This document shows positions 43,512 through 59,016 of a stretch of DNA of 64,000 nucleotides, piece by piece. The notes below the pieces were generated by a model, which worked only from the letters and a program-made list of their open reading frames with translations, did not search any database and was not told where the DNA came from. Within the stretch, counting starts at the first letter, position 1, and each line of letters starts with the position of its first letter. Location of the stretch: positions 62,001 through 126,000 of the forward strand of contig NZ_QTJU01000008.1 of the NCBI RefSeq assembly GCF_003412455.1. Reading direction: 5' to 3'. A program made the translations under genes and the position numbers. The DNA is from Deminuibacter soli (GTDB lineage Bacteria; Bacteroidota; Bacteroidia; Chitinophagales; Chitinophagaceae).

Positions 43512-44045
43512 TTAGGGATTGGCATGTACTTTCAGCGCTATTTTCACATCATCAGACAGTACAAGACTGCTGCCACCAATGCCAAAGTCGCGGCGGTTGA
43601 TAGTAAAATTGCCTTCAAACAAGTAACCTGCGCCCTCTTGTTTGGCAGTGAACGGGAAGCTGATGACCTTGGTAACACCTTTAACCGTAAGGTTCCCCGA
43701 CACCTTGTAAGCATTGTCGGCTGCTGTTATTTCCACACTGGTAAAACTGATTACCGGGAATTTAGCCACGTCGAAGTATTCTTCCTTGCGCAGGTGGTTG
43801 TCGCGGGCTTCCACACCGGTATTGATCGTGTTCACATCTACCGTGATATTGAATGAAGCAGTGCTGAGGCTGGCTGGTGCCCATACAATACTGCCTTTTA
43901 AACCACCCAGCGAACCATGGGTATTGATGGCGAAGTTTTTTATCGTAAAGTCAATTGCCTCCTTTTCATCAGCCGGCTTTAAAGCCTGTGCATAAACACC
44001 ATTTAAAGCCAGGAGCAATAGTAAAGTCCCTATAAACTGCTTCAT
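43512..44045 (-). CDS. YceI-like lipocalin-fold protein, possible polyisoprenoid carrier
   Basis: Secreted YceI-domain protein, 177 aa. Signal peptide 1-19 (ending GVYAQA), then IDFTIKNFAINTHGSLGGLKGSIVW, VDVNTINTGVEARDNHLRKEEYFDVAKFP and SGNLTVKGVTKVISFPF, all usual YceI segments. Known members bind long polyisoprenoids in a lipocalin-like barrel. It is the last gene of the carotenoid operon, 24 bases after crtY, so binding of a carotenoid or polyprenoid is a fair guess. Its stop codon is inside a target-site duplication of a MITE. Confidence 0.9.
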   Translation of the reverse strand: MKQFIGTLLLLLALNGVYAQALKPADEKEAIDFTIKNFAINTHGSLGGLKGSIVWAPASLSTASFNITVDVNTINTGVEARDNHLRKEEYFDVAKFPVISFTSVEITAADNAYKVSGNLTVKGVTKVISFPFTAKQEGAGYLFEGNFTINRRDFGIGGSSLVLSDDVKIALKVHANP

Positions 44046-44064: not shown

Positions 44065-44072
44065 CAAATTTA
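44065..44072 (-). promoter_or_regulatory. Internal -7 box (TAAATTTG) before yceI
   Basis: TAnnTTTG match on the minus strand, 19 bases before the yceI ATG and overlapping the crtY stop codon. It may give yceI and the tRNA a separate start. Confidence 0.35.
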
Positions 44073-45284
44073 GCTATTCAGTGCAGGTTCGCTGAGGCTT
44101 TTTTTGCCAGCCTTTTTACCGGGCAGCCTCAATAACTGTTGCAAGGCAGCACGCATAAACACAAATGCAGGTAAACTCCGCATTACCTGCCATTCATCCC
44201 GCAGCGATGATTCATTGTCTAAAAACCGCAAGATCACCTGCACGGGATTCTGCTGAAACAATGTACCAAAGATAGCGCTGCCCTGCATTTGCTGTTTAAC
44301 CAGTATGTGCAGCAGTGTAGCATCGTACATCCTGAAACGCCTGTACCAGAAGCTGTGCGGCACCTGCGGCTGTTTCCCCTGCTGCAAACGCTGAACAATA
44401 GCCGCAGTATGTTTTTGTATAAACCGGAAAGTATAACCGCTGCTGGCCTTGGTATCGCCACCGGCTGTGCCTATCAAAACCACTCTTTTACCGGGCGGCT
44501 GCGGCACAAAATCTGTCATGGGTATTACACCCTTTTCTTCTTCCACCACATGGTAGCCACACCCCGGCAAAAACGCGGTGAAATATTGCTGCAATGCTGC
44601 GTTGTAATCTGCATCGGCAAGTAAACTGCTGCTGAATTGCGTGTATTCAACCAATGCCTTGTTGGCGCTGAAAGGAAGTACGTAAACAAAGGCTGTTCCG
44701 GTTGCCTGGCTTACCCTGAAATCCATGAAAGTGGCGGATGCCGCATCAAACACAGGCTTATCGGTTTCCACCACCCAGCCTTTAAAATGCTGCAACAGGT
44801 AATGTGCACCCGCCTCTTTTGCCTGTTGCTGCAACGAAGTGCCGGGCAGTATACTGCTGAAAATATACCCGGCCGTATAGCTTATCCCTTCTACCTCTAT
44901 CCATGCGTACTGCTGCCCGTTTCCCATGGCGGTAACAGTTCCCTGAATATGTGTGATGTTGTTTTGTGCACGCACATTACCCAGCACATAGTTGTAAAAG
45001 TCAATGCCCCGGATCATTTTGTAGCGGTAAGGATGCAGCTGGCAGTGTTTTGAAAACGCGCCGGTATGCACAGCAATAGCAGGCCAGGAATGCGCCACGA
45101 TACTATCAAACAAACCTGCTTCCTGCTCCCAGAAACACCAGGTACGGTCGTTTGTGTTTTTATTTTGCTGATCAACCAGCAGGATGCTGGCCTTGCTGAA
45201 GAATGGATTTTGCATCATGCGCTGCAGCAGGCTTAACCCTGCACAACCGGCACCTGCAATAATATAATCGTAGTGTTGTTGCAA
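44070..45284 (-). CDS. crtY: Lycopene beta-cyclase (CrtY type)
   Basis: FAD/NAD-binding cyclase making beta-ionone rings on lycopene or related ends. The dinucleotide fold is at the N-terminus (YDYIIAGAGCAGLSLLQRMM), followed by the family segment NDRTWCFWE (40-52 region), and later GKRVVLIGTAGGDTKASSGYTF, the conserved C-terminal motif. 404 aa. It starts 15 bases after crtZ and ends before yceI. Only one cyclase is encoded; because the neighbours modify the opposite end of the molecule, a one-ring product is expected. Confidence 0.93.
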   Translation of the reverse strand: MQQHYDYIIAGAGCAGLSLLQRMMQNPFFSKASILLVDQQNKNTNDRTWCFWEQEAGLFDSIVAHSWPAIAVHTGAFSKHCQLHPYRYKMIRGIDFYNYVLGNVRAQNNITHIQGTVTAMGNGQQYAWIEVEGISYTAGYIFSSILPGTSLQQQAKEAGAHYLLQHFKGWVVETDKPVFDAASATFMDFRVSQATGTAFVYVLPFSANKALVEYTQFSSSLLADADYNAALQQYFTAFLPGCGYHVVEEEKGVIPMTDFVPQPPGKRVVLIGTAGGDTKASSGYTFRFIQKHTAAIVQRLQQGKQPQVPHSFWYRRFRMYDATLLHILVKQQMQGSAIFGTLFQQNPVQVILRFLDNESSLRDEWQVMRSLPAFVFMRAALQQLLRLPGKKAGKKSLSEPALNS

Positions 45285-45299
45285 TGAAACAAACGGGTA

Positions 45300-45782
45300 T
45301 TATGTTTTTTGTGCGGCAATCTGCTCGTCACGTTTTACTTTGTTCCAGTATTTGCGTGCAACGATGAGCATGCCGAAACTTTCGCCTTCTTCTTTATCGA
45401 GGTGTTTGTGGTGCATTTTATGCGCCCAGCGGATGGCGCGTATGTAACGACTGTTACTTCTGCTGAACCATTTGATGCGCTGGTGAATGATTACTTCGTG
45501 CACAATGAAATAAGCCAGTCCATACATGGCCACCCCTGCCCCGATGCTTACCACCCACCACACCTGGTAAATAGAACCCAGCATAATACTGAGCCAGCTG
45601 GGTATGGCAAAAATTACAAAAAAGGCATCGTTCTTTTCTACAAAGCCGGGGCCTTTCTTATGATGATCTTCATGCAGGTGCCACAAAAAGCCATGCATCA
45701 CGTATTTATGCGTGAGCCAGGTTATACCTTCCATAACACAGAAGGTGACCAGTGCAATTGCGATGTATAGCAGCATATTCAT
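45300..45782 (-). CDS. crtZ: Beta-carotene hydroxylase (CrtZ type)
   Basis: Membrane di-iron hydroxylase that adds the 3-OH group to a beta-ring. The four histidine motifs are complete: HKYVMH, HEDHH, HEVIIHQR and HKMHHK. 160 aa with four hydrophobic segments. Its start overlaps the end of the CruF-like gene by four bases and it precedes crtY by 15 bases. Confidence 0.94.
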   Translation of the reverse strand: MNMLLYIAIALVTFCVMEGITWLTHKYVMHGFLWHLHEDHHKKGPGFVEKNDAFFVIFAIPSWLSIMLGSIYQVWWVVSIGAGVAMYGLAYFIVHEVIIHQRIKWFSRSNSRYIRAIRWAHKMHHKHLDKEEGESFGMLIVARKYWNKVKRDEQIAAQKT

Positions 45783-46489
45783 AAAAAAGTTCGTATCACG
45801 AGAAAAAACAAGGCTTCAATTATCAACAAATGTATAGCGAAATAGTTGTTGCAATTGACCCGCAGCCGCCTGAACAAAACCAGTAACAGCAGGCTTACCA
45901 CCAGCCAGCTGCCGTAATTTAACATGGGTATCTCCCCATCAGCTGCCCAAGTCCAGAAGCCTAATTTTACCGCTGCGGGCTCCATCACCCAGTCGAACAA
46001 CACAGCAAGCAACGCGCCGTCTGCAATCACAGACAGGGTTTGAATACGCTTCGGCAAAACGAGCCCGCTTGCGGCATAATACCGCGCCAGCCTGTGTTGC
46101 AATATTTCCATGGCTGTGCCGCAGCAATATACAATTACCAGCCAGTTTACCCCTATCAGCAGCGGCACGCCTTTGTATTGCAAACCCAGCACGGGTGTAT
46201 AAACATACTGCCCGAAAAGCAGCCCGGTGTTAATACCCACTATCTCGGTTACCATACCTGTTACAAAAGCCAGTGCTGCAAACAACCAGAAACCTGCATG
46301 GCGCCTGTGATGCGTAAACAGCAGTAATATGGCCATCAGCCACAAATTCAGCGGTGTGTGCCGTATAAACCATGGCCTGGCGCTGGTAAACAGCCCAATA
46401 AGCCCGCTTATATGAAACAGCAGTGCAATGCCAAGAGCGATATTGTTGTTACGTTGGTGATTGCGGTTCAAGGATATGGGTTTAGCCAT
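45779..46489 (-). CDS. cruF: CruF-like carotenoid 1',2'-hydratase
   Basis: Polytopic membrane protein, 236 aa with seven to eight hydrophobic segments, of the carotenoid biosynthesis protein family (CruF/bisanhydrobacterioruberin hydratase). Family-like segments are AALAFVTGMVTEIVGINTG, FGQYVYTPVLGLQYKGVPLL and DWVMEPAAVKLGFWTWA. CruF adds water to the 1',2' double bond at the acyclic psi-end. It lies between the CrtD-like gene (four bases) and crtZ (overlap), which supports a route to 1'-hydroxy carotenoids. The call rests on motif memory and context. Confidence 0.82.
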   Translation of the reverse strand: MAKPISLNRNHQRNNNIALGIALLFHISGLIGLFTSARPWFIRHTPLNLWLMAILLLFTHHRRHAGFWLFAALAFVTGMVTEIVGINTGLLFGQYVYTPVLGLQYKGVPLLIGVNWLVIVYCCGTAMEILQHRLARYYAASGLVLPKRIQTLSVIADGALLAVLFDWVMEPAAVKLGFWTWAADGEIPMLNYGSWLVVSLLLLVLFRRLRVNCNNYFAIHLLIIEALFFLVIRTFL

Positions 46490-46493: not shown

Positions 46494-47978
46494 TTATGTA
46501 TCCAGTATTTTACCTGCTACAATGGCTGCGCTGCGCAGGCAAAGTGGGATACCGCCGCCCGGGTGCACGCTGCCGCCTGCAAAGTACAACCCTTTTATGC
46601 TGCGCGAAAAATTCGGATGCCGCAGAAATGCTGCCATGGGTGAATTGGAGCTGGTACCATACAACGATCCCATGTACGATGCTGTTTGTGCTTCGATGCC
46701 TGTGGGATCCATTACCTGTTCTTCTTCTATCAATGGCTCAATATCGGTTTGCAGCAACCGGTTCAGCTTCTGAATAACGTTTGCGCGGCATTGCTGTTTC
46801 ACCTGTTCATGGCCTGCGTAATCACCGGCCGGCGCATTCACCATTACAAACCAGTTTTCCTTACCTGCCGGTGCATGCAAGCCCGGCTCACATTTGGCCG
46901 TGATGTTGACATACACGGTGGGGTCGCTATGTAATTGCCTGTGCTTGAAAATCGCTTCAAACTCTTCCCGGTAGCTATTGCTGAAAAAAATGTTGTGCAG
47001 TTGCAATGCAGGAAAACTTTTACCAATGCCCCAGTAAAAAATAAGCGCACTGCTGCTGCGTTCCTGTTTCAACAGGCGTTGCGCGGCAACTTCATTGCCC
47101 AGCAGGTATTTATAGGTGAAATAGGCATCTATATTACTGATGACAACAGGAGCGTAATAATGCCTGTTGCCCGCCGTTACACCTTGCACCCTGTTTTGCT
47201 GCTGTAGAATATGCTGCACCGGTGTGTTAAAATGAAAAACAACGCCTTTGACGCAGGCCAGCCTGTACAGCGCATTGGCAATGCTGATCATTCCTCCCTT
47301 TGGATAAAACACGCCTTCATTGTGTTCCAGATGGGGTATCATACGCAGCATAGCCGGCGCTTTGTAGGGATTACTGCCATTGTAGGTGGCAAAACGGTTA
47401 AACAACTGCACCACGCGTGCATCGTTAAAGCATTGGCTGTTTAACCGGTGTAAACTCTTCAACAAATAAGCCGGCCTGGCATGCCGTAAGGCTTCGCGTA
47501 TGGGCGCATGCAGCCAGGTTTTACGGCTATGCAGCGAATGCTGCAGAAATATTTTGCCGGTGCTGTTGTATAACCCGGCAGCAGTATGCAGGTATTGTGT
47601 AACCGCTGTTGCAGGTTCACCTGTTTTTTGTGCGATCTCTTCAGCCAATAATTGAGCATTGGTAAAACCATCCAGCACTGTGCCGTCTTCATAAAAATAC
47701 CGGCAGGCGATAGCCAGCGGTTCGTAAGAAAAATAATCCTGCATCGGTTCACCGGCCAATGCAAACAATGCAGCGATGTTGCCGGGTTCGGTAAACAGGC
47801 TTGGCCCTGTATCGAAGCTGTAGTTACCCAATTGCAGCTGTGACAGTTTACCACCGGGTGCCGCATTTTTCTCAAAAACTGTTACTGCGTAACCGGCCAC
47901 GGCAAGGCGAATGGCACAAGCCATACCGGCAACACCTGCACCTATAACAATGGCATTCTGCTGCATAGGTGCTGTCAT
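46494..47978 (-). CDS. crtD: CrtI-family carotenoid desaturase, probably CrtD (1-hydroxycarotenoid 3,4-desaturase)
   Basis: FAD-dependent desaturase of the phytoene dehydrogenase family with N-terminal AIVIGAGVAGMACAIRLA and C-terminal GLYFAGGSVHPGGGIPLCLRSA. About 494 aa from the ATG at 47978 (or 47966). It is distinct from the crtI gene at 49437-50912 in the same operon. With CruF next to it, the best assignment is CrtD, which introduces the 3',4' double bond after 1'-hydration. Alternatives are a ketolase/CrtI paralogue such as CrtO or CrtN. The longer frame from 48053 overlaps idi and adds no family sequence. Confidence 0.82.
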   Translation of the reverse strand: MTAPMQQNAIVIGAGVAGMACAIRLAVAGYAVTVFEKNAAPGGKLSQLQLGNYSFDTGPSLFTEPGNIAALFALAGEPMQDYFSYEPLAIACRYFYEDGTVLDGFTNAQLLAEEIAQKTGEPATAVTQYLHTAAGLYNSTGKIFLQHSLHSRKTWLHAPIREALRHARPAYLLKSLHRLNSQCFNDARVVQLFNRFATYNGSNPYKAPAMLRMIPHLEHNEGVFYPKGGMISIANALYRLACVKGVVFHFNTPVQHILQQQNRVQGVTAGNRHYYAPVVISNIDAYFTYKYLLGNEVAAQRLLKQERSSSALIFYWGIGKSFPALQLHNIFFSNSYREEFEAIFKHRQLHSDPTVYVNITAKCEPGLHAPAGKENWFVMVNAPAGDYAGHEQVKQQCRANVIQKLNRLLQTDIEPLIEEEQVMDPTGIEAQTASYMGSLYGTSSNSPMAAFLRHPNFSRSIKGLYFAGGSVHPGGGIPLCLRSAAIVAGKILDT

Positions 47979-47986: not shown

Positions 47987-48517
47987 TCAGGCTACTGCAT
48001 TTTGCCTGGCTTCGCACCAGGCCAGTACTTTGGGAAAGGCGATATGAAACCACACAGTGTATTTGTGCGGATGGCTTTCAAGTGAAGCCTGTATATCGTA
48101 TATATTCTTGAAGCAGTAATCACTTACCTCGGTGCGCTCTGGGGAGATGCTGCCATTGTGATAACCTGCAAATACATGATCAAATTCGTATTCGGTTAGC
48201 CCGTTGTCGAAACCTGCCTTGTAGGTAAATTCGAAAATTTTGCCAAGCGGCGTTTCAAATCCCAGTTCTTCGCGCAGCCTGCGTTGTGCGCCTGCAAGGG
48301 TATCTTCGCCCGGCCTGGGATGACTGCAGCAGGCATTGGTCCATAACCCGCCGCTGTGGTACTTGTTCAGCGCTCTTTGCTGTAACAGCATTTCTCCTTT
48401 ATCATTAAATACAAAAACGCTGAAGGCCCTGTGCAGCAAGGCTTGCTGGTGTGCGGCCATTTTTTCCATCACACCAACGGGCTCGTCATTTTCGTTTACA
48501 AGTATCACTTCTTCCAT
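47987..48517 (-). CDS. idi: Isopentenyl-diphosphate delta-isomerase, type 1
   Basis: Nudix-fold enzyme interconverting IPP and DMAPP. The active-site Cys is in LWTNACCSHPRPGE and the metal-binding Nudix-like segment is AGAQRRLREELGF; the second catalytic Glu is in the region TEYEFDHVFAGYH. 176 aa, usual length. It is embedded in the crt operon between crtB (32 bases upstream) and crtD, supplying DMAPP for carotenoid precursor. A GGPP synthase (crtE) is not in the window. Confidence 0.94.
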   Translation of the reverse strand: MEEVILVNENDEPVGVMEKMAAHQQALLHRAFSVFVFNDKGEMLLQQRALNKYHSGGLWTNACCSHPRPGEDTLAGAQRRLREELGFETPLGKIFEFTYKAGFDNGLTEYEFDHVFAGYHNGSISPERTEVSDYCFKNIYDIQASLESHPHKYTVWFHIAFPKVLAWCEARQNAVA

Positions 48518-48548: not shown

Positions 48549-49385
48549 TTATAACAATTTCAGTTGGCTGCGAACACCTGCTTTGGCCAGAATAAAAGCT
48601 TTTCCATAGGCCGGAATACGTACACGCTGTTCCATAATGTGCTGCGGATGAAGTCTTTTTATTTTCCTGAATAACGACAGGTAGTACTTGTAAGCAACAT
48701 ACACGCCAAAACGCGCTTTCATAGGCAATTTCAGTATGCCTTTGTATGCTTCATCAAAATTATGCTGTATATCGGCTTCAATAGCCTGCTTGTCTGTTGC
48801 TGAAAATGCATTGAAATCACAACCGGGAAAATAGGTTCTGTTCAGCTGCTGGTAATCTGCCTTTATATCGCGCAGGAAATTGACTTTCTGAAAGGCGGCA
48901 CCCAGACTTTGTGCATATGGCTTAAGCTGGTTAAACAACACAGCATTGCCTTCGCAGAACACCTGCAGGCACATTAACCCTACAACTTCGGCACTGCCGT
49001 AAATATATTCTTCGTATCCCTGCCGGTTGTAAACGTTATTGGTGAGATCCTGCTCCATGCTGGTAAAAAAAGCGGTAACCAGTTGCCTGCTGATATGGTA
49101 TTTATGAACCGTTAACTGGAAGCTGTGCAAAATGGGGTTTAAGCTAATGCCCCGTTCAATGGCAGTAAAGGTTTCATGTTTAAATTCTGCAAGCAGCGCG
49201 GCTTTATCGTACTGGTGAAAGGTGTCAACTATTTCATCGGCAAACCGCACCAAACCGTAAATGTCATAAATAGCCCCACGCAGGTCTTTGTGCAGCAGCC
49301 GTATGGCCGATGCGAAAGATGTGCTGTAGTTTTCGGTGGTAATGCGGCTGCAGGCACGGCTAACAGTATGAAACAGCTGTATCAT
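48549..49385 (-). CDS. crtB: Phytoene synthase
   Basis: Condenses two GGPP to phytoene. The two Asp-rich motifs are present as VRFADEIVDTF (first, D-E-x-x-D) and LRDIKADYQQ (second, D-x-x-x-D), along with YGSAEVVGLMCLQVF and AAFQKVNFLRDI, the squalene/phytoene synthase signatures. 278 aa. It follows crtI after 51 bases in the minus-strand crt operon. Squalene synthase-type HpnD is an alternative family, unlikely beside crtI. Confidence 0.94.
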   Translation of the reverse strand: MIQLFHTVSRACSRITTENYSTSFASAIRLLHKDLRGAIYDIYGLVRFADEIVDTFHQYDKAALLAEFKHETFTAIERGISLNPILHSFQLTVHKYHISRQLVTAFFTSMEQDLTNNVYNRQGYEEYIYGSAEVVGLMCLQVFCEGNAVLFNQLKPYAQSLGAAFQKVNFLRDIKADYQQLNRTYFPGCDFNAFSATDKQAIEADIQHNFDEAYKGILKLPMKARFGVYVAYKYYLSLFRKIKRLHPQHIMEQRVRIPAYGKAFILAKAGVRSQLKLL

Positions 49386-49436: not shown

Positions 49437-50912
49437 TCAGCGCCCATACACTTTTAGCACTTCTTTGGCTACCACTTCCCCGCTGATTAAGCTGGGCGGC
49501 ACTCCCGGACCGGGCACTGTTAGCTGACCTGTATAAAAAAGGTTGGAGATTTTTTTACTGCGGCAACGCGGTTTCAATATCGCGGTTTGCAGCAGGGTAT
49601 TGGCCAAACCGTAAGCGTTTCCTTTAAAAGCATGATACGCTTCCACAAAATCGGTGTATGCAAAAGAACGCTTGTAAATAATGTTGCCGCGTATGCTTTG
49701 CCCGGTATGCTGTTCAAAACGCGCTGCAATTTTATCAAAATACCTGTCGCGCAATGCTGTTGTATCGCCCTGCAGCCCTGCCGCTACCGGCACCAGGAAG
49801 AACAGGTTTTCACATCCACCGGGTGCAACACCGGCATCTGTAACCGATGTTGTGCTTACATAAAACAACGGGTTACTGGGCCATTGCGGGTTGGTATAAA
49901 TCTCCTTTCCATGAATTTCAAACGAAGTATCAAAAAAAAGTGAATGGTGCAATACATTGTTTAATTTTTTATTCAAACCAATGTAATACAATAAACAACC
50001 GGGCGCCATTACACGGCTATTCCAGTATGCATCGCTGTAACTGCGCTGGTGTGGCGGCAACAATGCTGTTTCCATATGATGATAATCAGCTGCGCCTATT
50101 ACCGCATCTGCAGTATATATGTTTTGTGCTGTAACCACACCGGTAACCTTGTTGCCTGTTGTTTGTAATTGCTGCACCGCTTCATTAAAACGGAATTGTA
50201 CGCCCAGTTCAAGTGCCAGGCTGTACATGGCCTGCACTACCTGGTACATACCACCCTGCGGGTACCAGGTGCCCCCTTTAATATCAGCATAGTTCATGAG
50301 ACTGTACAATGCAGGAATTTTTTCGGGCAAGGCGCCTAGAAATAATACCGGGAATTCCATGAGTTGCTGCAGCGCCTCAGTTTTAAAAAAACGGGCTACG
50401 TGTTTTTTCATGGAACCCAGTATATCGAGCTTAAACAAATCGATGAGCAGCGCAGGGTCAGCAAATTCAGTTACAGAAAGCCCGGGCTTGTACACCAGCT
50501 GCTGCATGCCTTTCCGGTATTTGTAGGCAGCTTCTTTTAAAAACTGTTGTAACCTCGCGGCACTGCCTGGCTCTGTTTCTTCAAAAAGGGTTTCCAAAGC
50601 GGTATAATCAGCAGGAATATCGGTGTAATGATGAGAACGGTAAACGCGGTAAGAGGGATCGAGCCGTTGAAGGGTATAATAGTCAGCAGTTGTTTTGCCA
50701 AACTGTGCAAAAAAGCGGTCAAATACATCGGGCATCCAGTACCAGCTGGGGCCCATATCAAATGTAAAACCATCAGCAACCAGTTGCCTGGCACGGCCCC
50801 CGGGCATCGCATTCTTTTCCAGAACAGTCACATCCCACCCTGCTTTGGCCATAAAGCAGGCGGCAGACAAACCGGCAAAACCGCTGCCGGTTACGATGAG
50901 TTTTTTATGCAA
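49437..50912 (-). CDS. crtI: Phytoene desaturase
   Basis: FAD-dependent desaturase turning phytoene into lycopene. N-terminal dinucleotide motif VTGSGFAGLSAACFMAKAGW with VTVLEKNAMPGGRARQ, then FDMGPSWYWMPD, and at the C-terminus NLFYTGQLTVPGPGVPPSLISG, the CrtI signature. 491 aa. The nucleotide-binding motif starts at residue 7, so the gene must begin at a TTG codon (50912), nine bases after the sigma factor stop; no ATG is available. That suggests translational coupling to the sigma gene. Confidence 0.93.
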   Translation of the reverse strand: MHKKLIVTGSGFAGLSAACFMAKAGWDVTVLEKNAMPGGRARQLVADGFTFDMGPSWYWMPDVFDRFFAQFGKTTADYYTLQRLDPSYRVYRSHHYTDIPADYTALETLFEETEPGSAARLQQFLKEAAYKYRKGMQQLVYKPGLSVTEFADPALLIDLFKLDILGSMKKHVARFFKTEALQQLMEFPVLFLGALPEKIPALYSLMNYADIKGGTWYPQGGMYQVVQAMYSLALELGVQFRFNEAVQQLQTTGNKVTGVVTAQNIYTADAVIGAADYHHMETALLPPHQRSYSDAYWNSRVMAPGCLLYYIGLNKKLNNVLHHSLFFDTSFEIHGKEIYTNPQWPSNPLFYVSTTSVTDAGVAPGGCENLFFLVPVAAGLQGDTTALRDRYFDKIAARFEQHTGQSIRGNIIYKRSFAYTDFVEAYHAFKGNAYGLANTLLQTAILKPRCRSKKISNLFYTGQLTVPGPGVPPSLISGEVVAKEVLKVYGR

Positions 50913-50920: not shown

Positions 50921-51424
50921 CTAATAGCGCTGTATATAACTTTTAAGCAGTTTACGCGCAAAGTGTATCCTGCTCTTGATAGTGCCCAGCGGCTCCTGCA
51001 GCATGTCGGCAATTTCGTGGTATTTATAACCGTCGAAGTATAAAAGGAATGGATTCTTAAAAATTTCCGGCAGGTGAAAAATAGCCTGCTGCACTTCTTT
51101 CATGTTCAGGTTGCTTACCGCTGCATTGGTGGTTGTGGGCTGGCGGTAATTAAGCAGAAAATCGTTGGGAGAGTTATCAAAAATCACGTTCTGCTTGGAT
51201 TTGCGCCTGTAATTATTGATAAAGATGTTACGCATGATGGTGTATAACCAGGCTTTGATATTGGTACCCACATTGTACTTGTCTTTATTGGCAAGGGCTC
51301 TGAAGAGGGTTTCCTGGAACAGGTCTTTAGCCGATTCCGTATCTCTGGTAAGTGTAATGGCGAATGGTTTCAGGAATTCGGCATTGCTCATCAGCATCTG
51401 GTTAAATTCAAGCGTAGCGGACAT
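50921..51424 (-). CDS. ECF-type sigma factor at the head of the carotenoid operon
   Basis: Sigma-70 family protein, about 167 aa from the ATG at 51424 (MSATLEFNQM). Region 2: FLKPFAITLTRDTESAKDLFQETLFRALANKDKYN and IKAWLYTIMRNIFINNYRRK. Region 4: LPEIFKNPFLLYFDGYKYHEIADMLQEPLGTIKSRIHFARK. No anti-sigma gene lies beside it. It is immediately followed by crtI (stop to TTG start nine bases), and preceded, 165 bases away, by the B12-binding MerR gene. It may drive the operon itself or a wider stress/light regulon. Confidence 0.9.
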   Translation of the reverse strand: MSATLEFNQMLMSNAEFLKPFAITLTRDTESAKDLFQETLFRALANKDKYNVGTNIKAWLYTIMRNIFINNYRRKSKQNVIFDNSPNDFLLNYRQPTTTNAAVSNLNMKEVQQAIFHLPEIFKNPFLLYFDGYKYHEIADMLQEPLGTIKSRIHFARKLLKSYIQRY

Positions 51425-51450
51425 GTTTTTGCGTTTAAGTGTGCGTATAC

Positions 51451-51458
51451 CAAATTTA
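51451..51458 (-). promoter_or_regulatory. -7 box (TAAATTTG) of the sigma-crt operon
   Basis: TAnnTTTG match on the minus strand, 26 bases before the sigma ATG, in the gap where a CarH-like repressor would be expected to bind. It is the best candidate for the operon promoter. Confidence 0.5.
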
Positions 51459-51588
51459 AACAAAATCATTGCCAAAGTCAAGTGCTGTATTCAATTGTAC
51501 ATCAGGAACAATAAAACAGGCAGCACCGGCCTGCGGGGTGCTTAAAATCACTGCAAATGTCAGACCTATGTATGTACGCATATGCCGT

Positions 51589-52467
51589 CTAAAGCGTTGC
51601 TATGTACTCCATTACCTCGCTCAATGTTTTTTTGAAATGCACATGGGCGGGTATCTGTTTTTTGTAGAGGTGGGTAATTTGCCCGGATATAAAAATCTGT
51701 GTGTCGGGCAGCCGGGTGCTGATTTGATGTAAAAAACGCTCAAAATTAAAACTGAGCGAGGTAGAGGTGAGATGGCTGTATATAAAGTCGGGCTGCTTCA
51801 GTTTAACTACGTATTCCACATCGGGCATGGGGACGTTGGCACCGATATAAATTACCTTAATCCCCCTGCTTTTCATTAAATAATACATGAATAAAATGCC
51901 CAATTCGTGATGCTCGTTTTCGGGCAGGAACAGCAGGGCTGTTTTGTTGGTTTGCATGTGACTTACCGTGCTTTCAATGCCAACGATGAGCTTTTGCCGT
52001 ATTAAATTGGTCACCAGGTGCTCCTGTGCGGGGTTAATATGGTTGGTGAGCCACAGAATGCCAATACGCTCGAGAAAGGGGAAAATGATGTGAATGATGG
52101 CCTTTTCTATCCCGCGCGCCATGATATAATGGTCGATGATAAATTCGAATTTTTCAATATCCAGGTCTACCATTCCCTGGATTAATTCATTGATAATTCT
52201 TTCCTGCTGGGCCTGGCCATGGGAAAGAGAGAGAATTTTTTCCCTTATTTCGTCAGGCCCCATCTTGTCAATATGGGAAATTTTATACCCATATTTATTC
52301 AATAGCGCGATATTGAGAATGGTTTTTAATTCGTCATTACTATAATAACGTATGTTAGTGTCGGTTCGTTTAGGTTTCAGAAAAGAATAACGCTGCTCCC
52401 ATATACGGATGGTGTGGGCCCGTATACCAGACAGGTTTTCCAGATCCTTTATGGTAAAAGCGTTCAT
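51589..52467 (-). CDS. MerR-family regulator with CarH-type cobalamin-binding domain
   Basis: About 292 aa from the ATG at 52467. N-terminal MerR winged helix (FTIKDLENLSGIRAHTIRIWEQRY, 4-27; INxRYY-type wing at 39-42). Then a four-helix bundle with W139, nine residues and E149-H150, the W-x9-EH cap motif of CarH/LitR proteins. A Rossmann-like B12 domain follows with E185-x-H187-x-x-G190, a variant of D-x-H-x-x-G whose His is the lower cobalt ligand, and S231-x-L. Known CarH proteins bind adenosylcobalamin, repress crt genes in the dark and release DNA in light. Adjacent to a sigma-crt operon, the same role is likely here. The Asp to Glu change is notable. Confidence 0.88.
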   Translation of the reverse strand: MNAFTIKDLENLSGIRAHTIRIWEQRYSFLKPKRTDTNIRYYSNDELKTILNIALLNKYGYKISHIDKMGPDEIREKILSLSHGQAQQERIINELIQGMVDLDIEKFEFIIDHYIMARGIEKAIIHIIFPFLERIGILWLTNHINPAQEHLVTNLIRQKLIVGIESTVSHMQTNKTALLFLPENEHHELGILFMYYLMKSRGIKVIYIGANVPMPDVEYVVKLKQPDFIYSHLTSTSLSFNFERFLHQISTRLPDTQIFISGQITHLYKKQIPAHVHFKKTLSEVMEYIATL

Positions 52468-52503
52468 ACCTAAGCAACAGTTAGTTAAACAAATTGTTTG
52501 AAG

Positions 52504-52511
52504 CAAAACTA
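52504..52511 (-). promoter_or_regulatory. -7 box (TAGTTTTG) of the merR/carH-like gene
   Basis: TAnnTTTG match on the minus strand, 36 bases before the ATG at 52467, back to back with a CATATTTG near-match on the plus strand (52517-52524) that could serve the polysaccharide genes. Confidence 0.45.
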
Positions 52512-52603
52512 GGTTTCATATTTGCATGATAAGTTTCATTCATTTTTTTATAGCTATTTAATTGCAAGGATTTAAAGTATTTTCGCTAGTAACAACCGTC
52601 ACT

Positions 52604-53251
52604 ATGAATATGAGGATCTTTACCTTCTATTGCTGCCTGCTGTTAATCTTCTCCTGCACCGGAGGACTAACTAAAAACACCATAGTATACCAAAACGACT
52701 TTGAACAGGGTAAAGGAATTGGTATAGAGCTCCAGAATTATGATGGCAGCATGTTCAGAACAGAAGACAAAGTATTTACGTTTAACGGATCGAAAGTGCT
52801 TGGCCGGATGAATAATACTGCATTAACATTAAATCTAAAGCAGCTGCCGGAACATACTTACCTGCGAATTATGTTCGACCTGTACATACACGACCGGTGG
52901 GAAGGCAATACTGTACCCAATAGTGCAGGTTCTGATATCTGGAATCTCAAGGGAGAAGGTAATTATATAATAAGCACCACTTTTTCCAATGTTGACCACC
53001 TGAACCAGGCTTTCCCGTACTATTTTGGCAGTGGAGTTAGCCCTGCACGTGGCGGTTCGCAGGATACGCTGTTCCCGGGCGTTTGCGCTTCCCAGACATT
53101 ACCCAATGGCACCACCTTATATAAAATGCAGTATACCATTACACATTCTGCTGCTACTTTCACCCTTAGTTGCAACGATGCCCTGCAAGGCAGCCTCTGC
53201 GATAAAAGCTGGTCGATTGATAACTTGGTGATTTCTGTTTTGAACAACTAG
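52604..53251 (+). CDS. Hypothetical lipoprotein at the head of the polysaccharide cluster
   Basis: Not recognised. About 215 aa from the ATG at 52604 (an in-frame TTG at 52562 would place extra residues before the signal peptide). A short N-terminal hydrophobic stretch ends in the lipobox LIFSC, so it is probably lipid-anchored. The rest is beta-rich with regular hydrophobic strands (VYQNDFEQGKGIG, YLRIMFDLYIHDRWEG, WSIDNLVISVLN), resembling jelly-roll/concanavalin-type carbohydrate-binding folds. Ends 10 bases before the flippase gene, hence part of that operon. Function unknown. Confidence 0.6.
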   Translation: MNMRIFTFYCCLLLIFSCTGGLTKNTIVYQNDFEQGKGIGIELQNYDGSMFRTEDKVFTFNGSKVLGRMNNTALTLNLKQLPEHTYLRIMFDLYIHDRWEGNTVPNSAGSDIWNLKGEGNYIISTTFSNVDHLNQAFPYYFGSGVSPARGGSQDTLFPGVCASQTLPNGTTLYKMQYTITHSAATFTLSCNDALQGSLCDKSWSIDNLVISVLNN

Positions 53252-53261
53252 TAAACCTATT

Positions 53262-54698
53262 ATGGCTGACCCTGTCAAGAAGAATTATATTTATAATCTT
53301 ATCCTTTCGCTGGTTAATATTCTTTTCCCGATAGTAACTTTTCCTTATGCGTCGCATCTTTTGGGCCCGGAAGGCATTGGTAAAGTACAGTTTGTAAGCT
53401 CTTTTGCCCAGTATTTTTCAATGATAGCTGCCCTGGGCATCCCGATTTATGGCGTAAAGGAAATTGCCGCCACCCGCAGTCAGCCACATAAAATGCAAAT
53501 CGTGTATTCAGAGCTTACACTGGTTTATTTTATTGCCAGCATAATATGCACCCTGCTTTACTTCATCATCATCTACAGCTTTCCCTATTTTAAAAACGAT
53601 TTACACCTGTATCAATACGCCGTGCTTATTATTATTCTGGCTTTTACGGCGGCAGACTGGTATTATTCGGGCATCGAAGAGTTCCGGGCTATTACTTTAC
53701 GGTCGGCTTTTATAAAACTGCTTTCGCTTATCGCATTGTTCCTGTTTGTGAAAACGCCTGCTGATTACTTTAATTACCTGCTTATTACTATCTTTTCAAT
53801 TGTAGGCAACAACATCATTAGCTTTTTCTATACATTCAGAAGCGTTTCCTTTACCACCCACAACCTGTACCCGCTGCGGCATTTAAAGCTGCTGCTGTAT
53901 ATTTTCAGCACCACAGCCGCTGCCAGCCTGTACACGGTGTGGGATACTGTATTATTGGGGTTTTTGTCAGATGATACTGCCGTTGGTTTGTATACAGCTG
54001 CTGTTAAGCTGGCCAAAATAACATTGTACTTTGTTACTTCGCTCGGTGTGGTGCTGATACCTAAAATCAGTTTGCATTTTGCGCAGCATAATATGAACGA
54101 AGTGCAAAAGCTCCTGAACAAGTCGTTTAACTTCGTTATTTTTTTTTCGATCCCCATCCTGGCAGGACTGGTGTTGCTGGCTCCTGAATTCCTGGTTGTA
54201 TTTTCCGGGCGCCGCTTTCTGCCGGCCACCTTTGCCATGCAATTGCTATCACCGCTTCCTGTTTTTATTGGGTTGGGCCATTTATTCCTTTTCCAGATAT
54301 TAATACCGGGCAATAAAAGCAAGGAAATGATTGTTGCAGTGCTGGGTGGTGTTGCGGTAAGCATAGGTGCCAACTTTTTACTGGTACCGCATTTCAGGGA
54401 AACAGGCGGCGCCATTGCCAATGTGCTGGCCGAATGCATGGTAACCTGGCTTTACTGGCGCGCTGTAAAAAAACACTACACTTTTACCTACAACTGGATA
54501 CTATTGCTTAAAGCAGCAGCATGCTGTATCCCTTTCATTGCTGTAACCTGGGGTGTTCACCTGCTTCATTTGTCCCCGGTACAGGTATTGCTTGTTACTG
54601 TAGCCATGTGCGCCATAATTTATGGCCTGCTGCAAATGGTGCTGTTTAGAAACGAACTGGTAGTGCAGGCGTTTACGTATGTTTACAAAAAATTCTGA
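53262..54698 (+). CDS. Polysaccharide flippase (Wzx/RfbX-type, MOP superfamily)
   Basis: Integral membrane protein of 478 aa with about 12-14 hydrophobic segments. It begins KNYIYNLILSLVNILFPIVTFPYAS, then HLLGPEGIGKVQFVSSFAQYF, which is the oligosaccharide-flippase start. Moves lipid-linked repeat units to the periplasmic side. It overlaps the next glycosyltransferase gene by 20 bases. With the polymerase gene at 57592 it indicates a Wzx/Wzy-dependent surface polysaccharide. Confidence 0.93.
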   Translation: MADPVKKNYIYNLILSLVNILFPIVTFPYASHLLGPEGIGKVQFVSSFAQYFSMIAALGIPIYGVKEIAATRSQPHKMQIVYSELTLVYFIASIICTLLYFIIIYSFPYFKNDLHLYQYAVLIIILAFTAADWYYSGIEEFRAITLRSAFIKLLSLIALFLFVKTPADYFNYLLITIFSIVGNNIISFFYTFRSVSFTTHNLYPLRHLKLLLYIFSTTAAASLYTVWDTVLLGFLSDDTAVGLYTAAVKLAKITLYFVTSLGVVLIPKISLHFAQHNMNEVQKLLNKSFNFVIFFSIPILAGLVLLAPEFLVVFSGRRFLPATFAMQLLSPLPVFIGLGHLFLFQILIPGNKSKEMIVAVLGGVAVSIGANFLLVPHFRETGGAIANVLAECMVTWLYWRAVKKHYTFTYNWILLLKAAACCIPFIAVTWGVHLLHLSPVQVLLVTVAMCAIIYGLLQMVLFRNELVVQAFTYVYKKF

Positions 54699-55629
54699 TT
54701 TGTTGACTGCCGCAGCTAACACCATACCCATACAAGGCATATCTGTTGTGATGGCGACCTGTAATGGCGCCACCTACCTGCGGCAACAGCTAGATTCCAT
54801 ACTGGCGCAAACCCTGCAGCCGGCAGAAATTATTGTATACGATGACAGCTCTACCGATGAAACCCTGCAGATACTCGAAACCTACCGCGAACAAGGGTTG
54901 CTGCAATATTTTACAAATACGGTAAGACTGGGGGTTATCGGTAATTTCCAGCGTGCTGCGGCGGCAGCAAAACCCAACAATTATATCGCTTTTGCCGACC
55001 AGGATGATATATGGCTGCCTGATAAACTTGAAAAAGCCCTGCACGCCATGCCTGCCAATAATCTGCAGCCATGCCTGGTATACAGCAACCTGTTGCTGAT
55101 AGATGCTGAAGGCAAACAATTGCCGGGTACTGCCTGGGAAGTGTTTGGCTATCATAAATACCGCCACTGCCTGCATACATTCTTATTTGCTAATTTCGTT
55201 TTCGGTTGCACCACATTAATAAATTCAACTATGCGTGAATTCCTGATGGAAATGCCCTATAAAGGCAAACTCAATCACGATGCCTGGCTGGCGCTGACCG
55301 CCTTCAGCCTGGGAAATGCAATAGGTATAACAGAGCCACTAATAGCCTACCGAAAACACGCCAGCAATGTTACTTTTGACAACTCGCAAAAGAAAAGCAT
55401 GATTGCACGCATTGGCCGCAACATCAGATGGTTACTGGGCACTAACGACCCGTTGAAAGAATATATTTCCATGGTAACGCTTTTTTATAATACCTATCAA
55501 AAACAGTTACCCCCGCATGTTCAGCGCGTATTACGCCGTTACCTGAAACTAAACGGCAAACCGTTTATCGTAAAGCGTATTGCACTGGAATTCTTTTTTG
55601 CCGGCAAATGGCAGGGAAGATGGCGCTAA
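54679..55629 (+). CDS. Family 2 glycosyltransferase
   Basis: Inverting GT-A transferase of the rhamnosyl/alpha-sugar type. Motifs: ISVVMATCNGATYLRQQLDS (21-40), DDSSTDETLQIL, FADQDDIWLPDKLEKA (metal-binding D-x-D region), then HDAWLALTAF with the catalytic-base Asp. 316 aa. Overlaps the flippase end by 20 bases. Acceptor and sugar unknown. Confidence 0.9.
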   Translation: MFTKNSDLLTAAANTIPIQGISVVMATCNGATYLRQQLDSILAQTLQPAEIIVYDDSSTDETLQILETYREQGLLQYFTNTVRLGVIGNFQRAAAAAKPNNYIAFADQDDIWLPDKLEKALHAMPANNLQPCLVYSNLLLIDAEGKQLPGTAWEVFGYHKYRHCLHTFLFANFVFGCTTLINSTMREFLMEMPYKGKLNHDAWLALTAFSLGNAIGITEPLIAYRKHASNVTFDNSQKKSMIARIGRNIRWLLGTNDPLKEYISMVTLFYNTYQKQLPPHVQRVLRRYLKLNGKPFIVKRIALEFFFAGKWQGRWR

Positions 55630-55660
55630 AACTATTACCGTATTGAAAAATAACCTATAA

Positions 55661-56626
55661 ATGTCGTATTTAGCATTTGAGCCTTTTGTGATGTGTGTGG
55701 TGTGTAAAAGCAGTTTAACTTCTGCAGCTTCTTTTTTTCAATGTGTAAACCCGGCTTGCGGATGCAGGTACCCTGTGGTAAATGGCGTGCCTGTACTGAT
55801 CAATCCCGCCAGTGAAACATTTCAGCAAACAGATTTCCTGAGCGGCGAAGCACCGGATATTTTTTTTAAAGCATACAAAAGTCCGCTCCGGAAATTCCTG
55901 AAAAAAGTACAGCCCGATATTACCCTTAACCGGGCAAGCAAAAAAAACTACAGTCTCCTTGCCGCTTCACTTAAACATAAAACCGAAGTACGCATACTGA
56001 TAGTGGGTGGCAGCATCGACGGCAATGGTATTCAGTTCCTGAAAAACGAACTTGGCAAGGATACCGTACTTGTTGAATCGGATGTAGCGCATGGCCCCAA
56101 TACCAATGTTATACTGGATGCCCACAATATTCCTTTTAAAGAAAACACATTCGACCTGGTAATAGCACAGGCCGTTCTGGAGCATGTGTTAGACCCATTT
56201 TTGTGTGTTAAAGAAATTTACAGGGTATTGAAACCCGGTGGACAGGTGTATGCCGAAACGCCTTTTATGCAACAGGTGCATGGCGGGCAGTACGATTTTC
56301 ACCGGTTCACCTTTTTGGGACATCGCAGGCTTTTCAGGCATTTCAAACAATCCGGCGCGGGGCTGGTAGCCGGTGCAGGCTCTGCGGCCGCATGGTCGCT
56401 GCGCTATTTTATCACCAGCTTCGCCCCTACCAAAACCGTAGACAAGGCAATGAGCTACGGTGTAAATTTCCTGGTATTCTGGCTGAAATATTTTGATTAT
56501 ATCCTGGGCCAGTCCAAAGGCTCGTATGATGCAGCATGCGCATATTATTTTCTTGGCACAAAAGAAGAAGGTTATACGCTAAGTGATAAAGAATTGCTTT
56601 TGCTGTACAAAGGCTTCAGGTATTAA
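55661..56626 (+). CDS. SAM-dependent methyltransferase with N-terminal zinc-ribbon-like segment
   Basis: 321 aa. The N-terminus has four cysteines (CVVCK, CVNPACGCRYPV) like Trm112/zinc-ribbon pieces. The class I methyltransferase domain follows: ILIVGGSIDGNG (motif I), DLVIAQAVLEHVLDP (motif IV) and EIYRVLKPGGQVYAETPF (motif VI). The C-terminal half contains extra hydrophobic helices. Probably methylates a sugar or lipid carrier intermediate, judging by the neighbours; the target is not readable from sequence. Confidence 0.85.
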   Translation: MSYLAFEPFVMCVVCKSSLTSAASFFQCVNPACGCRYPVVNGVPVLINPASETFQQTDFLSGEAPDIFFKAYKSPLRKFLKKVQPDITLNRASKKNYSLLAASLKHKTEVRILIVGGSIDGNGIQFLKNELGKDTVLVESDVAHGPNTNVILDAHNIPFKENTFDLVIAQAVLEHVLDPFLCVKEIYRVLKPGGQVYAETPFMQQVHGGQYDFHRFTFLGHRRLFRHFKQSGAGLVAGAGSAAAWSLRYFITSFAPTKTVDKAMSYGVNFLVFWLKYFDYILGQSKGSYDAACAYYFLGTKEEGYTLSDKELLLLYKGFRY

Positions 56627-56638
56627 TTCATAACCGGC

Positions 56639-57562
56639 ATGCAGCAAAAAGTAGCTATCATACTCGTAAACTGGAATGGATTTGCTTATACCAGCAACTG
56701 CATTGCATCTTTACGCAACCTGACGTACCGCGCATTCGATATTATTGTAGTAGACAATGCTTCGCCCGATGGTTCGGGCAGGCAGCTAAAAGAAGCCCAC
56801 CAGGATATTATTTTGCTGCAATCGGCCACTAATACCGGTTTTTCGGGCGGCAATAATATCGGCATCCGTTATTCGCTGGCTCATCAATATACCCATACGC
56901 TTTTACTAAACAACGATACCCTTGCCGAACCAGGCTTTTTATCTGCCCTGATGAATTACTTGAACAGCCATCCCGGTACCGGTGCAGTTCAGCCGCTCAT
57001 TTATTTTAACCACAACCGCAGCCTGGTATGGAATGGCGGCTCGTATTTTAACAAGATATGGGGTTATACCTCTGTGCCCGGCCATAACAAACCTGTGCAG
57101 GCTGTGCATCTGCAAACAAAGCAGGTACACTGGATTACCGGTTGCGCGCTGCTGATTCGCAATACTGTTTTACAGCAAACCGGTTTGCTGGCCGGCAATA
57201 TGTTTATGTACAGCGAAGATGTGGATTTTTCTTTCAGGATACGGAAACTGGGTTACCAGCTTGCCTATGTGCCCAACGCAGTAATTTACCATATCGCCGG
57301 CATGTCTAACAAAAAGGAAAAGAAAGATGCAGAAGGTTTTATCAATGCATCTGTACACTATTATAACCAGCGCAACCGCATCTGGATACTGAAAAAGTAT
57401 GTGCCGCTGCCATTTGCGCCCACTGCACTGCTGTTTAATTTTTTTTACATAACAGGTGTAATGAGCTATTTTGTGGCTCGTTTTCGTTTCGCCAAATTGC
57501 GTGCAACCTGCCGTGCAGTCAAAGACGGGCTGCTGTATGGCATAAAATATACTAATGACTAA
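56639..57562 (+). CDS. Family 2 glycosyltransferase (rhamnosyltransferase-like)
   Basis: GT-A fold enzyme, 307 aa. Begins VAIILVNWNGFAYTSNCIAS (4-23), with IIVVDNASPDGS, TGFSGGNNIGIRY, LLLNNDT and the late motif GNMFMYSEDVDFSFRIRKLGY, which is typical of WbbL-like rhamnosyltransferases. A hydrophobic segment near the C-terminus (about 262-285) may anchor it. It starts 12 bases after the methyltransferase gene. Confidence 0.9.
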   Translation: MQQKVAIILVNWNGFAYTSNCIASLRNLTYRAFDIIVVDNASPDGSGRQLKEAHQDIILLQSATNTGFSGGNNIGIRYSLAHQYTHTLLLNNDTLAEPGFLSALMNYLNSHPGTGAVQPLIYFNHNRSLVWNGGSYFNKIWGYTSVPGHNKPVQAVHLQTKQVHWITGCALLIRNTVLQQTGLLAGNMFMYSEDVDFSFRIRKLGYQLAYVPNAVIYHIAGMSNKKEKKDAEGFINASVHYYNQRNRIWILKKYVPLPFAPTALLFNFFYITGVMSYFVARFRFAKLRATCRAVKDGLLYGIKYTND

Positions 57563-57591
57563 GACAGAGACACGATAACCAACATCTTACA

Positions 57592-59016
57592 ATGTTCCTG
57601 ATTTTTCCAGTAATATATGTGTCGTTATTCTTCATTGCACTCTACCATATTTTGCATGGCAGGGTACACAAAATGCTGCTCTTTATCATCTTCGGGCTTC
57701 CCATTTACATTACTACGATGTCTGTTACATTAATGTATGGATACGGCAAATATATTCCCATACTGCAGGCTTTTAAAGAGCTTACTATATTAATTGCACT
57801 GGCCACTATTATTTTTTCTGTTCACCGCGCGGTAAAGCTCGATAAAATTGACAAACTGGTGCTGGCTTATGCAGCTTACAGCATGTTGTACGTGGTATTA
57901 CCTGTGGGCAATTTCCCACTGTACGAAAAGCTGCTGGCCTTTAAAACACTGTCTTTTTTCCCATTCATTTATTTTGCCGGCCGGCTTATCCGCGTCGCTT
58001 CTGTAAACATTACAGAATACTTTCATTATATATGTCTGGTGACCATTGCAGCAGCCATTGTACTGGTATTTGAGGTAGTACCCTATACGCATCTTCAAAC
58101 CGTTACAGGCTATGCCGATTTCAACTACTACTTTTACGACCTGAAGCCCGCAGGCAACTATGGCCTTACCTGGACTTTTGAAATTGAAAACGGCCTTAAA
58201 CGTTTTGCCAGTTTTTTTGCCAACCCGCTGGAGCATGCGGCTTCAAACCTCATTACACTGTCTGCATTAATAGCGCTTGCTGTAATAAACAAACGCATTG
58301 TATTAACCCGCCTGCTTGTTGTTGCGTTTGCTGCTACAGTATTTTCCGTCATTTTTGCGCTGTCAAGGGCATCCCTGGCCAGCTTCTTTTCTATCCCCTA
58401 TGCCTATGCCTGGCTGGCCGGTAAAAAGCGCTGGCTGAAAATAATTCACTACGGTGCAGCTGTGGGTGTACTGCTTTTCCTGTTATTGTTAAAGGGAGAT
58501 TTATACGATTTTATTATCAATAGTATCGATTTCAGCAATTCGTCCAGCGTGGCGCATCTTATTGAGTGGCAAAATGGTCTTGATGCCATTATTCAACACC
58601 CGCTTGGCCTGGGCCTTGGATCTTCGGGCCGCACCGCAGCTACTGCCGGTTTGAGCGTTGGCGGCGAAAGCCAGTTTATTATTTTATCGGTACAGATTGG
58701 GCTGATTGGTTTATTCCTGTACCTGATGATATACTTTAATATTATTATCACCGCTGCACGCATGTATAAAAGTCCCGGCGGTAAGATACATAAAACGGCA
58801 GTGTTTGTTTTTCTGTTGAAAATTAGTTTGTTTATACCACTTTTTACCGCTGAAGCTGAATCTTACCTGTATATCAGTTATATTGGGTGGTTCTTCTCGG
58901 GCTTTTTGGTTAATTTAAAGATGCAAGCCAATGATTATAGGAATAGATATCCGGGATTTGAAGCTGGCCGAAACAGGTCAGAGGACAACATTGGAAGAGA
59001 CGTGCAGGCAATTTAA
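57592..59016 (+). CDS. O-antigen polymerase/ligase-like membrane protein (Wzy type)
   Basis: 474 aa with about 11-12 hydrophobic segments and a large periplasmic loop. The late motif IQHPLGLGLGSSGRTAA with VGGESQFIILSVQIGLIGLF is the Wzy_C/O-antigen ligase signature. In a cluster with a flippase it is most likely the polymerase of repeat units; WaaL-type ligase is the alternative. Its C-terminal end overlaps the next glycosyltransferase by 86 bases, an unusually long overlap. Confidence 0.88.
   Translation: MFLIFPVIYVSLFFIALYHILHGRVHKMLLFIIFGLPIYITTMSVTLMYGYGKYIPILQAFKELTILIALATIIFSVHRAVKLDKIDKLVLAYAAYSMLYVVLPVGNFPLYEKLLAFKTLSFFPFIYFAGRLIRVASVNITEYFHYICLVTIAAAIVLVFEVVPYTHLQTVTGYADFNYYFYDLKPAGNYGLTWTFEIENGLKRFASFFANPLEHAASNLITLSALIALAVINKRIVLTRLLVVAFAATVFSVIFALSRASLASFFSIPYAYAWLAGKKRWLKIIHYGAAVGVLLFLLLLKGDLYDFIINSIDFSNSSSVAHLIEWQNGLDAIIQHPLGLGLGSSGRTAATAGLSVGGESQFIILSVQIGLIGLFLYLMIYFNIIITAARMYKSPGGKIHKTAVFVFLLKISLFIPLFTAEAESYLYISYIGWFFSGFLVNLKMQANDYRNRYPGFEAGRNRSEDNIGRDVQAI

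Follow-up and report, generated by a model that had tools for sequence, protein, structure and literature searches.

CarH is a model green-light receptor and an optogenetic tool, with characterised examples from few phyla. Here we describe a CarH-like regulator of the MerR family and its predicted operator in a 64,000-nucleotide stretch of the Deminuibacter soli genome (contig NZ_QTJU01000008.1, positions 62,001 to 126,000; hereafter the window), in which the regulator gene precedes an extracytoplasmic function (ECF) sigma factor gene and a series of carotenoid (crt) genes.

The closest described systems are the CarH/LitR class I proteins of Thermus thermophilus, Bacillus megaterium, Myxococcus and Cystobacter, which share with the window regulator the MerR DNA-binding domain, a two-part cobalamin domain, the Wx9EH motif, the E-x-H cobalt ligand, a crt target and the TnnACA half-site. 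Their operators, as described for T. thermophilus and B. megaterium, consist of 11-bp direct repeats, whereas the predicted half-sites in Bacteroidia form inverted pairs at 24 or 25 bp, and such pairs are often doubled at a distance of 55-57 bp; moreover, the His next to the Trp and the salt-bridge pair of T. thermophilus CarH (TtCarH) each occur in just 1 of the 139 homologues considered here. For M. xanthus CarA, an early proposal of a paired inverted repeat gave way to direct repeats in later work (PMC9304148). In LitR-LitS of Streptomyces coelicolor, a CarH-type regulator also adjoins an ECF sigma gene and controls carotenoids. In the window, by contrast, the sigma gene itself heads the crt operon, and the prediction is repression, not light activation; furthermore, some genomes have retained the sigma factor although crtB was not detected in them. 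We know of no DNA target for CtMerR of Chloracidobacterium thermophilum, a member of a different phylum. CtMerR (PDB 8jbs/8jbt) has the same cobalamin domain fold, and has no His at the position of TtCarH H132, yet is light-responsive. The class II LitR proteins of Pseudomonas, PplR and PmlR, are alike in their light regulon, which for PplR includes folE and photolyase genes (PMC9758184), but they have the helical half of the B12 domain alone and a LOV protein partner, while the window regulator has both halves and the B12 residues. Within Bacteroidota, Chryseobacterium lacus displays light-induced crt expression; no CarH or operator was identified there, and the authors only speculate that a hypothetical gene beside crtB acts like CarA/LitR (PMC7064467). 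Apart from that speculation, searches of an open-access PMC set (subscription papers being outside its scope) turned up no paper on a Bacteroidota CarH operator or a CarH-sigma-crt operon in the phylum.

Our reading of the locus, to which we give a probability of roughly three in four, is that the regulator would be an adenosylcobalamin (AdoCbl)-dependent dark repressor of the sigma-crt operon, one whose operators have a geometry of their own and whose regulon serves light protection. In the dark, the AdoCbl-bound protein would oligomerise and bind TTGTTTAA-N16/17-TTAAACAA elements that overlie the -7 box and the site where sigma-crt transcription probably begins, which would keep the operon off. 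Light would cleave the cobalt-carbon bond, break up the oligomer and free the promoter, so that the sigma factor and the carotenoid enzymes would be made together. The regulator, the predicted operator elements and the sigma gene lie as follows.

51589..52467, minus strand: CarH/LitR-like MerR regulator, 292 aa (ATG at 52467, stop at 51589), with a DNA-binding domain at residues 4-69, a four-helix B12 cap at 92-160 and a Rossmann B12 domain from about 173
51431..51463, minus strand: predicted operator, proximal inverted repeat TTGTTTAA-N17-TTAAACGC, 14/16 to consensus
51487..51519, minus strand: possible degenerate distal copy CTGTTTTA-N17-TTGAATAC, 11/16
51451..51458, minus strand: candidate Bacteroidota -7 promoter box TAAATTTG, overlapping the left operator arm
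50921..51424, minus strand: ECF sigma factor, 167 aa, first gene of the operon

Within 51424-52511, the interval marked in an initial annotation of this DNA, the MerR gene thus occupies 51589-52467, and the rest is intergenic region and sequence 5' of its start. The same annotation had proposed a CarH-type, AdoCbl-dependent, light-sensing repressor at the sigma promoter, a proposal now backed by sequence, model and comparative data; two of its details, an unusual gene layout and a natural variant in the B12 motif, did not survive the comparisons below.

The regulator as a probable CarH-type protein

The regulator exceeds the cut-offs of Pfam MerR_1 (4e-14), MerR and B12-binding_2, and falls marginally short of that of B12-binding, the Rossmann half (31.8 bits vs 32.1; match 183-271). 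Among proteins of solved structure, T. thermophilus CarH/LitR come nearest, with E values of 9e-21 and 1e-20. The recognition helix of the regulator, RIWEQRY, fits RxWE(R)RY with a Q replacing the first R of ERRY. The residues on which the light-sensing proposal had been founded are present as claimed, in the cap motif W139-x9-E149-H150 and in the cobalt-ligand motif D/ExHx2G, here E185-x-H187-x2-G190; in a sequence alignment H187, the second His of EHH, lines up with the cobalt His of TtCarH (numbering of PMC11796333). W139, E149, H150, E185 and H187 are jointly kept in 136 of the 139 homologous loci. The Glu of the cobalt-ligand motif, put forward earlier as an Asp-to-Glu variant, is in fact the common state: the published consensus is D/E-x-H-x2-G/P (PMC9304148), TtCarH has Glu, and so do 138 of the 139 homologues.

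An AlphaFold2 single-chain model of the regulator (predicted local distance difference test, pLDDT, 89.7; predicted TM-score, pTM, 0.81) gave TtCarH as its best Foldseek match, at E 7.6e-16. Its cobalamin domain compares with that of the H132A variant of TtCarH at VIA Z 17.7 (root-mean-square deviation 2.9 over 194 residues) and with that of CtMerR at VIA Z 17.5. Unlike class II LitR, the regulator has the Rossmann half of the B12 domain, with model strands from E176 to E279. The window genome also contains a PduO-type cobalamin adenosyltransferase, so AdoCbl can probably be made from cobalamin. From its sequence and model, the MerR protein is a probable Bacteroidota relative of the CarH/LitR class I photoreceptors.

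Several features of the protein weigh against this reading. The class I B12 motif has SxT/V and GG further downstream, and its GG is S261-G262 here; the signature GxxH is NxxH. The position of TtCarH H132, the His of the bis-His light state, is taken by Leu140 (His in 1/139 homologues), and the TtCarH R176-D201 dimer pair by H186/N211, these two numbers having been placed by us onto the alignment of TtCarH and the regulator. One of the 139 homologues has a pair of TtCarH polarity, and three have the reversed polarity. The NCBIfam CarH equivalog NF052513 scores the regulator at 101.5 bits, against a cut-off of 400, and for this reason we name it CarH-like and not an equivalog of NF052513. The change from GG to SG is clade-wide, since S or T stands at position 261 in 117 of the 139 homologues.

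A rival explanation is that the protein is a B12-independent, CarA-like regulator, or one that responds to redox or B12 status, and not a photoreceptor. It draws on the loss of H132, of the R176-D201 pair and of the first Gly of GG, and on the inability of TtCarH H132A to monomerise (PMC11796333). However, the Trp of Wx9EH, whose absence marks CarA (PMC9304148), is present here as W139 and kept in 138 of the 139 homologues; CtMerR, with Arg at the H132 position, still passes from tetramer to monomer in the light (PMC11796333); and the photolyase, pterin and rhodopsin neighbours of the operator sites, described below, point to light. We consider this explanation very unlikely and retain the photoreceptor reading.

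A predicted inverted operator and its association with CarH

The initial annotation had proposed a footprint of positions 51425-51588. This interval includes a conserved inverted repeat that had been missed: a predicted operator of consensus TTGTTTAA-N16/17-TTAAACAA, just 5' of the sigma start, is common to the CarH-sigma gaps of relatives. Across 578,908 bases, made up of the window and 28 loci from relatives, copies matching at least 15 of the 16 bases number 21 at spacer 16 or 17 and at most 2 at any other spacer from 6 to 30; for perfect copies the figures are 12 and 0 (all other spacers together). To these we added a named set of 66 sigma genes, in which the 200 nt upstream of each gene were scored for the 16-base consensus. 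At spacer 16 or 17, 64 of the 66 regions hold a copy of at least 14/16, 33 of them perfect, whereas over 20 shuffles the mean number of such loci was 0.15 for spacer 16 and 0.05 for spacer 17. When 15/16 is required, spacer 16 has 40 loci and spacer 17 has 28, while none of the other spacers between 4 and 40 exceeds 6. A search of the same regions for any perfect 8-base inverted repeat returned TTGTTTAA as the commonest arm (33 loci).

Where two copies exist they are mostly 55-57 bp apart; cultured species with such paired sites include Sediminibacterium goheungense and Hydrotalea sandarakina. TAnnTTTG, which we take to be the Bacteroidota -7 box consensus and which is the basis for the candidate box in the window, lies inside the left arm in 19 of 62 proximal vs 1 of 56 distal copies (consensus TTTTGTTTAAcTTTg). 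Each arm carries TnnACA, the core of the published CarH operator (PMC9304148), inverted at 24 or 25 bp in 106 pairs over the 66 regions. An operator of tandem 11-bp direct repeats, nnnnTnnACAn, was also considered and rejected: two such repeats occur in 1 of the 66 regions (shuffle mean 0.5), and three in none of them. Together with the loss of the R176-D201 pair, the inverted operator may point to a different assembly on DNA, and its geometry offers a test case for a photoreceptor domain that may have evolved another way to sit on DNA.

In the window, the proximal repeat stops 6 nt before the sigma ATG, and the distal copy sits 56 bp from it, the register seen in relatives. A lone half-site, TTAAACAA, is found at 52485-52492, shortly upstream of the MerR start; as full operator copies precede carH in several relatives, the MerR gene may control itself.

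To relate the operator to the regulator, exact sites were counted among the matches listed for 198 genomes of the class, a CarH match being one of E 1e-40 or better. Exact sites are present in 71 of 113 genomes with a CarH match vs 6 of 85 without (p 5e-17), and a reversed-pattern control in 5 of the 198. Sigma matches were found in 26 genomes, 19 with any CarH match and 6 without; G027 (39% identity, no CarH, best site 11/16) was left out, as were more distant second sigma copies in G025, G034 and G035. A site of at least 14/16 accompanies the sigma gene in 18 of the 19 genomes with CarH vs none of the 6 without (p 4e-5). When only window-type CarH is counted, the figures are 17/17 vs 1/8 (p 2e-5), the single case being G023.

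Unlinked targets also carry the site (sigma-crt in G010, with CarH on another contig, and in G023; crtI in G034), as do the sigma-less CarH-crtI operons L047 and L048. In genomes without window-type CarH (G003, G007, G026) there is no site at the crt operon, and G015, which keeps sigma-crtI-crtB-idi-crtZ-crtY with no CarH match, has a best site of 12/16. The crt operons of G036 and G029 run to the contig end; in G035 there is no site in the 226 nt upstream of the first crt match, which may not be the operon start. In a count over two fixed windows, sigma or crt stands within 2.5 kb in 108 loci, of which 9 lack a site; of the 31 remaining loci, 8 have one. L109 and L159 share their upstream neighbours (gmd, fcl and a CpsB-like gene, named by eye), followed by CarH-sigma-idi in L159 and by sigma-idi in L109, as if CarH and the operator had been lost together in L109.

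Four of the 139 regulators have Ala22 in the recognition helix (RAWEKRY), and next to every one of them stands at least one TTAGACAA arm. The 135 others comprise 109 of TTAAACAA type, 25 that lack a site and 1 tie; by best score, two of the four Ala22 regulators are TTAGACAA-type, one is a tie and one is TTAAACAA-type, and single TTAGACAA arms also lie beside non-Ala22 regulators. Covariation of recognition helix and operator arm is thus suggestive only.

Other results belong on the contrary side of the balance. Partial matches also turn up at spacers outside 16 and 17, those of 4-8 reaching 14/16 in as many as 16 of the 66 sigma upstream regions; in the same regions, one perfect copy has spacer 33. 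The window's own proximal site is just 14/16 and its distal copy degenerate; since 37 of 500 shuffles of the regulator-sigma gap reach 11/16 somewhere, the distal copy rests on its register alone. No exact site was found in 42 of the 113 class genomes with CarH, and the statistics of association ignore shared ancestry. G003 has a divergent CarH, yet no site at sigma or crt, and the CarH match of G023 is a divergent paralogue alone, on a contig that begins about 230 nt before the first site.

Some of these results would also fit a different scenario, in which another regulator, or the sigma-holoenzyme, occupies the inverted repeat and the CarH-like protein acts elsewhere: the element overlaps the promoter box, 6 of the 85 class genomes that have no CarH match contain an exact site, and G003 combines a CarH match with the absence of a site at its sigma or crt genes. 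Such a scenario does not sit well with sites in sigma-less CarH-crtI operons and before carH itself, nor with the lack of a site upstream of sigma in all six counted relatives that have sigma but no CarH match. The co-occurrence of site and CarH over the 198 genomes and the published CarH core in each arm (PMC9304148) also argue against it, as, suggestively only, does the TTAGACAA arm near all four Ala22 regulators. We judge it distinctly unlikely; binding by the CarH-like protein itself remains our preferred reading.

The window genome encodes a second CarH-like protein (L002 / L051; G000:C21:308300-309121), with 35% identity and the W, E, H and H kept. Its gene adjoins an acetyl-CoA acetyltransferase-like gene (named by eye); the 20 kb covered around it contain no crt match, and no TTGTTTAA-type site at the locus reaches 13/16.

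Genes next to predicted operator sites and the possible role of the sigma factor

The genes next to exact sites were surveyed in 67 loci, with 72 of the 75 sites among the class-wide matches listed (those of G004 and G014 and one G162 site being left out). The sites precede sigma genes in 20 cases, carH in 5, crtI in 4, crtZ in 3 and crtB in 1, and also PTPS (4), folE (2) and photolyase (1) genes; another 5 are merely within 3 kb of photolyase, crtZ or crtY. In one genome, the assumed ATG of a bacteriorhodopsin-like gene follows 58 nt after a perfect site (L095:7694-7725, G035:C159), suggesting B12- and light-dependent control of rhodopsin in G035. In the relatives' loci L103 and L098, sites lie among folE, PTPS, SOUL and photolyase genes. 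With sites before photolyase, pterin (folE, PTPS), carH and rhodopsin genes, the Bacteroidia element looks like that of a light-protection regulon.

In the window genome (G000), a 13/16 site (L338:2986-3017) was located 37 nt upstream of the only photolyase match (G000:C7:3055), with PTPS and FolE relatives 2-3 kb downstream; a second 13/16 match lies within 8 kb around the photolyase. The only other G000 match to TGTTTAAN16-17TTAAAC is at the end of contig C3, without an assignable gene.

The survey also has a side less favourable to our reading. Genes without identification flank 27 of the 72 exact sites. A list of regulon members in G000 drawn up with a loose pattern proved useless, with 116 spacer-17 matches (up to 3 mismatches) vs 70 in the control, which means that weak copies, the photolyase site included, are not specific. 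Nor is every site light-linked: of 12 non-crt sites in relatives (L093-L104) that are perfect or nearly so, three (L095, L098, L103) lie by light-related genes and nine by diverse ones. No gene of the query set was found just downstream of the site matches L105 and L106, from genomes without CarH.

A scan of named genomes gave at least 593 matches, of which the best 80 loci were analysed for gene order. A same-strand sigma gene lies within 1.2 kb of CarH in 63 of these 80; 13 have neither sigma nor crtI, and 4 are at a contig edge. The layout in the window, earlier described as unusual, is therefore common among relatives, and a CarH-type protein controlling a crt-driving ECF sigma is also known from Streptomyces LitR/LitS (PMC12705666). 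Five sampled genomes (G001, G006, G009, G018, G022) keep the sigma, at 46-78% identity, without crtB (E 1e-20). Six of the 67 fetched site loci (L273, L278, L300, L303, L322, L328) combine a sigma relative (39-46% identity) with a photolyase and show no match to crt genes up to 3 kb from the site. We read the presence of the sigma in genomes without crtB and in photolyase loci as that of a light-response sigma factor, which probably extends the light response to further genes and does not merely amplify crt expression. A sigma-to-crt amplifier, as the initial annotation had it, is possible.

The Streptomyces precedent (PMC12705666) and the frequency of sigma after CarH would also agree with a LitR-LitS-like arrangement, in which the light-converted protein activates sigma transcription and the sigma factor drives a separate crt promoter. 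In the window, however, 8 nt separate sigma from crtI, and the repeat lies over the -7 box region, where a repressor would sit; the sigma persists in five genomes in which crtB was not detected, and in some relatives whose locus has no sigma (L047, L048, L056, L057) CarH comes directly before crtI. Activation of this kind appears rather unlikely to us, and we continue to favour dark repression of the joint operon.

Beyond the window, we lean, with some reserve, towards a widespread cobalamin light regulon in Bacteroidia. CarH-type repressors would act there on a new operator architecture (inverted TnnACA at 24/25 bp, commonly in two copies 55-57 bp apart), with a dark-state assembly unlike the head-to-tail tetramer of Thermus; their targets would be genes for ECF sigma factors, carotenoids, pterins, photolyase and, in places, rhodopsin, and the sigma factor would carry the response further. 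If true, B12 availability would be tied to pigments, DNA repair and perhaps rhodopsin in Bacteroidota. A conserved, searchable operator would also take the field from guesses based on a CarH-like gene near crt to regulon prediction across Bacteroidia.

The carotenoid operon and its surroundings

Gene order bears out the earlier statement that the MerR gene lies beside an ECF sigma gene heading a carotenoid operon; it is directly upstream of the sigma gene, with a gap of 164 nt. The genes that follow the sigma gene are listed below.

49437..50912, minus strand: CrtI (NCBIfam CrtID, 720 bits, cut-off 640)
48549..49385, minus strand: CrtB-like phytoene synthase (SQS_PSY; below every NCBIfam equivalog cut-off)
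47987..48517, minus strand: Idi, isopentenyl-diphosphate isomerase
46494..47966, minus strand: CrtD, 1-hydroxycarotenoid 3,4-desaturase (553 bits, cut-off 500)
45779..46489, minus strand: CruF-like carotenoid hydratase (Caroten_synth; under NCBIfam cut-offs)
45300..45782, minus strand: CrtZ-like hydroxylase (no Pfam or NCBIfam match), presumably so from its His motifs
44070..45284, minus strand: lycopene cyclase, CrtY type (Pfam Lycopene_cycl)
43512..44045, minus strand: YceI-family protein, end of the co-directional run

From sigma through yceI the genes are co-directional, and their gaps range from a 4-nt overlap to 51 nt (with the ATG at 47966 as crtD start), a spacing from which co-transcription of sigma and crt may be inferred. 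The nine genes attributed to the operon earlier are reached if sigma and yceI are both counted.

A long polysaccharide cluster (flippase, glycosyltransferases and epimerases, named by eye) occupies 52562-63880, divergent from the MerR gene; polysaccharide-type genes adjoin the sigma gene in the relatives' loci L109, L111 and L159 too. On the other side, 28829-43300 contains two SusC/SusD-like pairs, with a FecR-like gene and a further sigma-70 gene nearby (named by eye).

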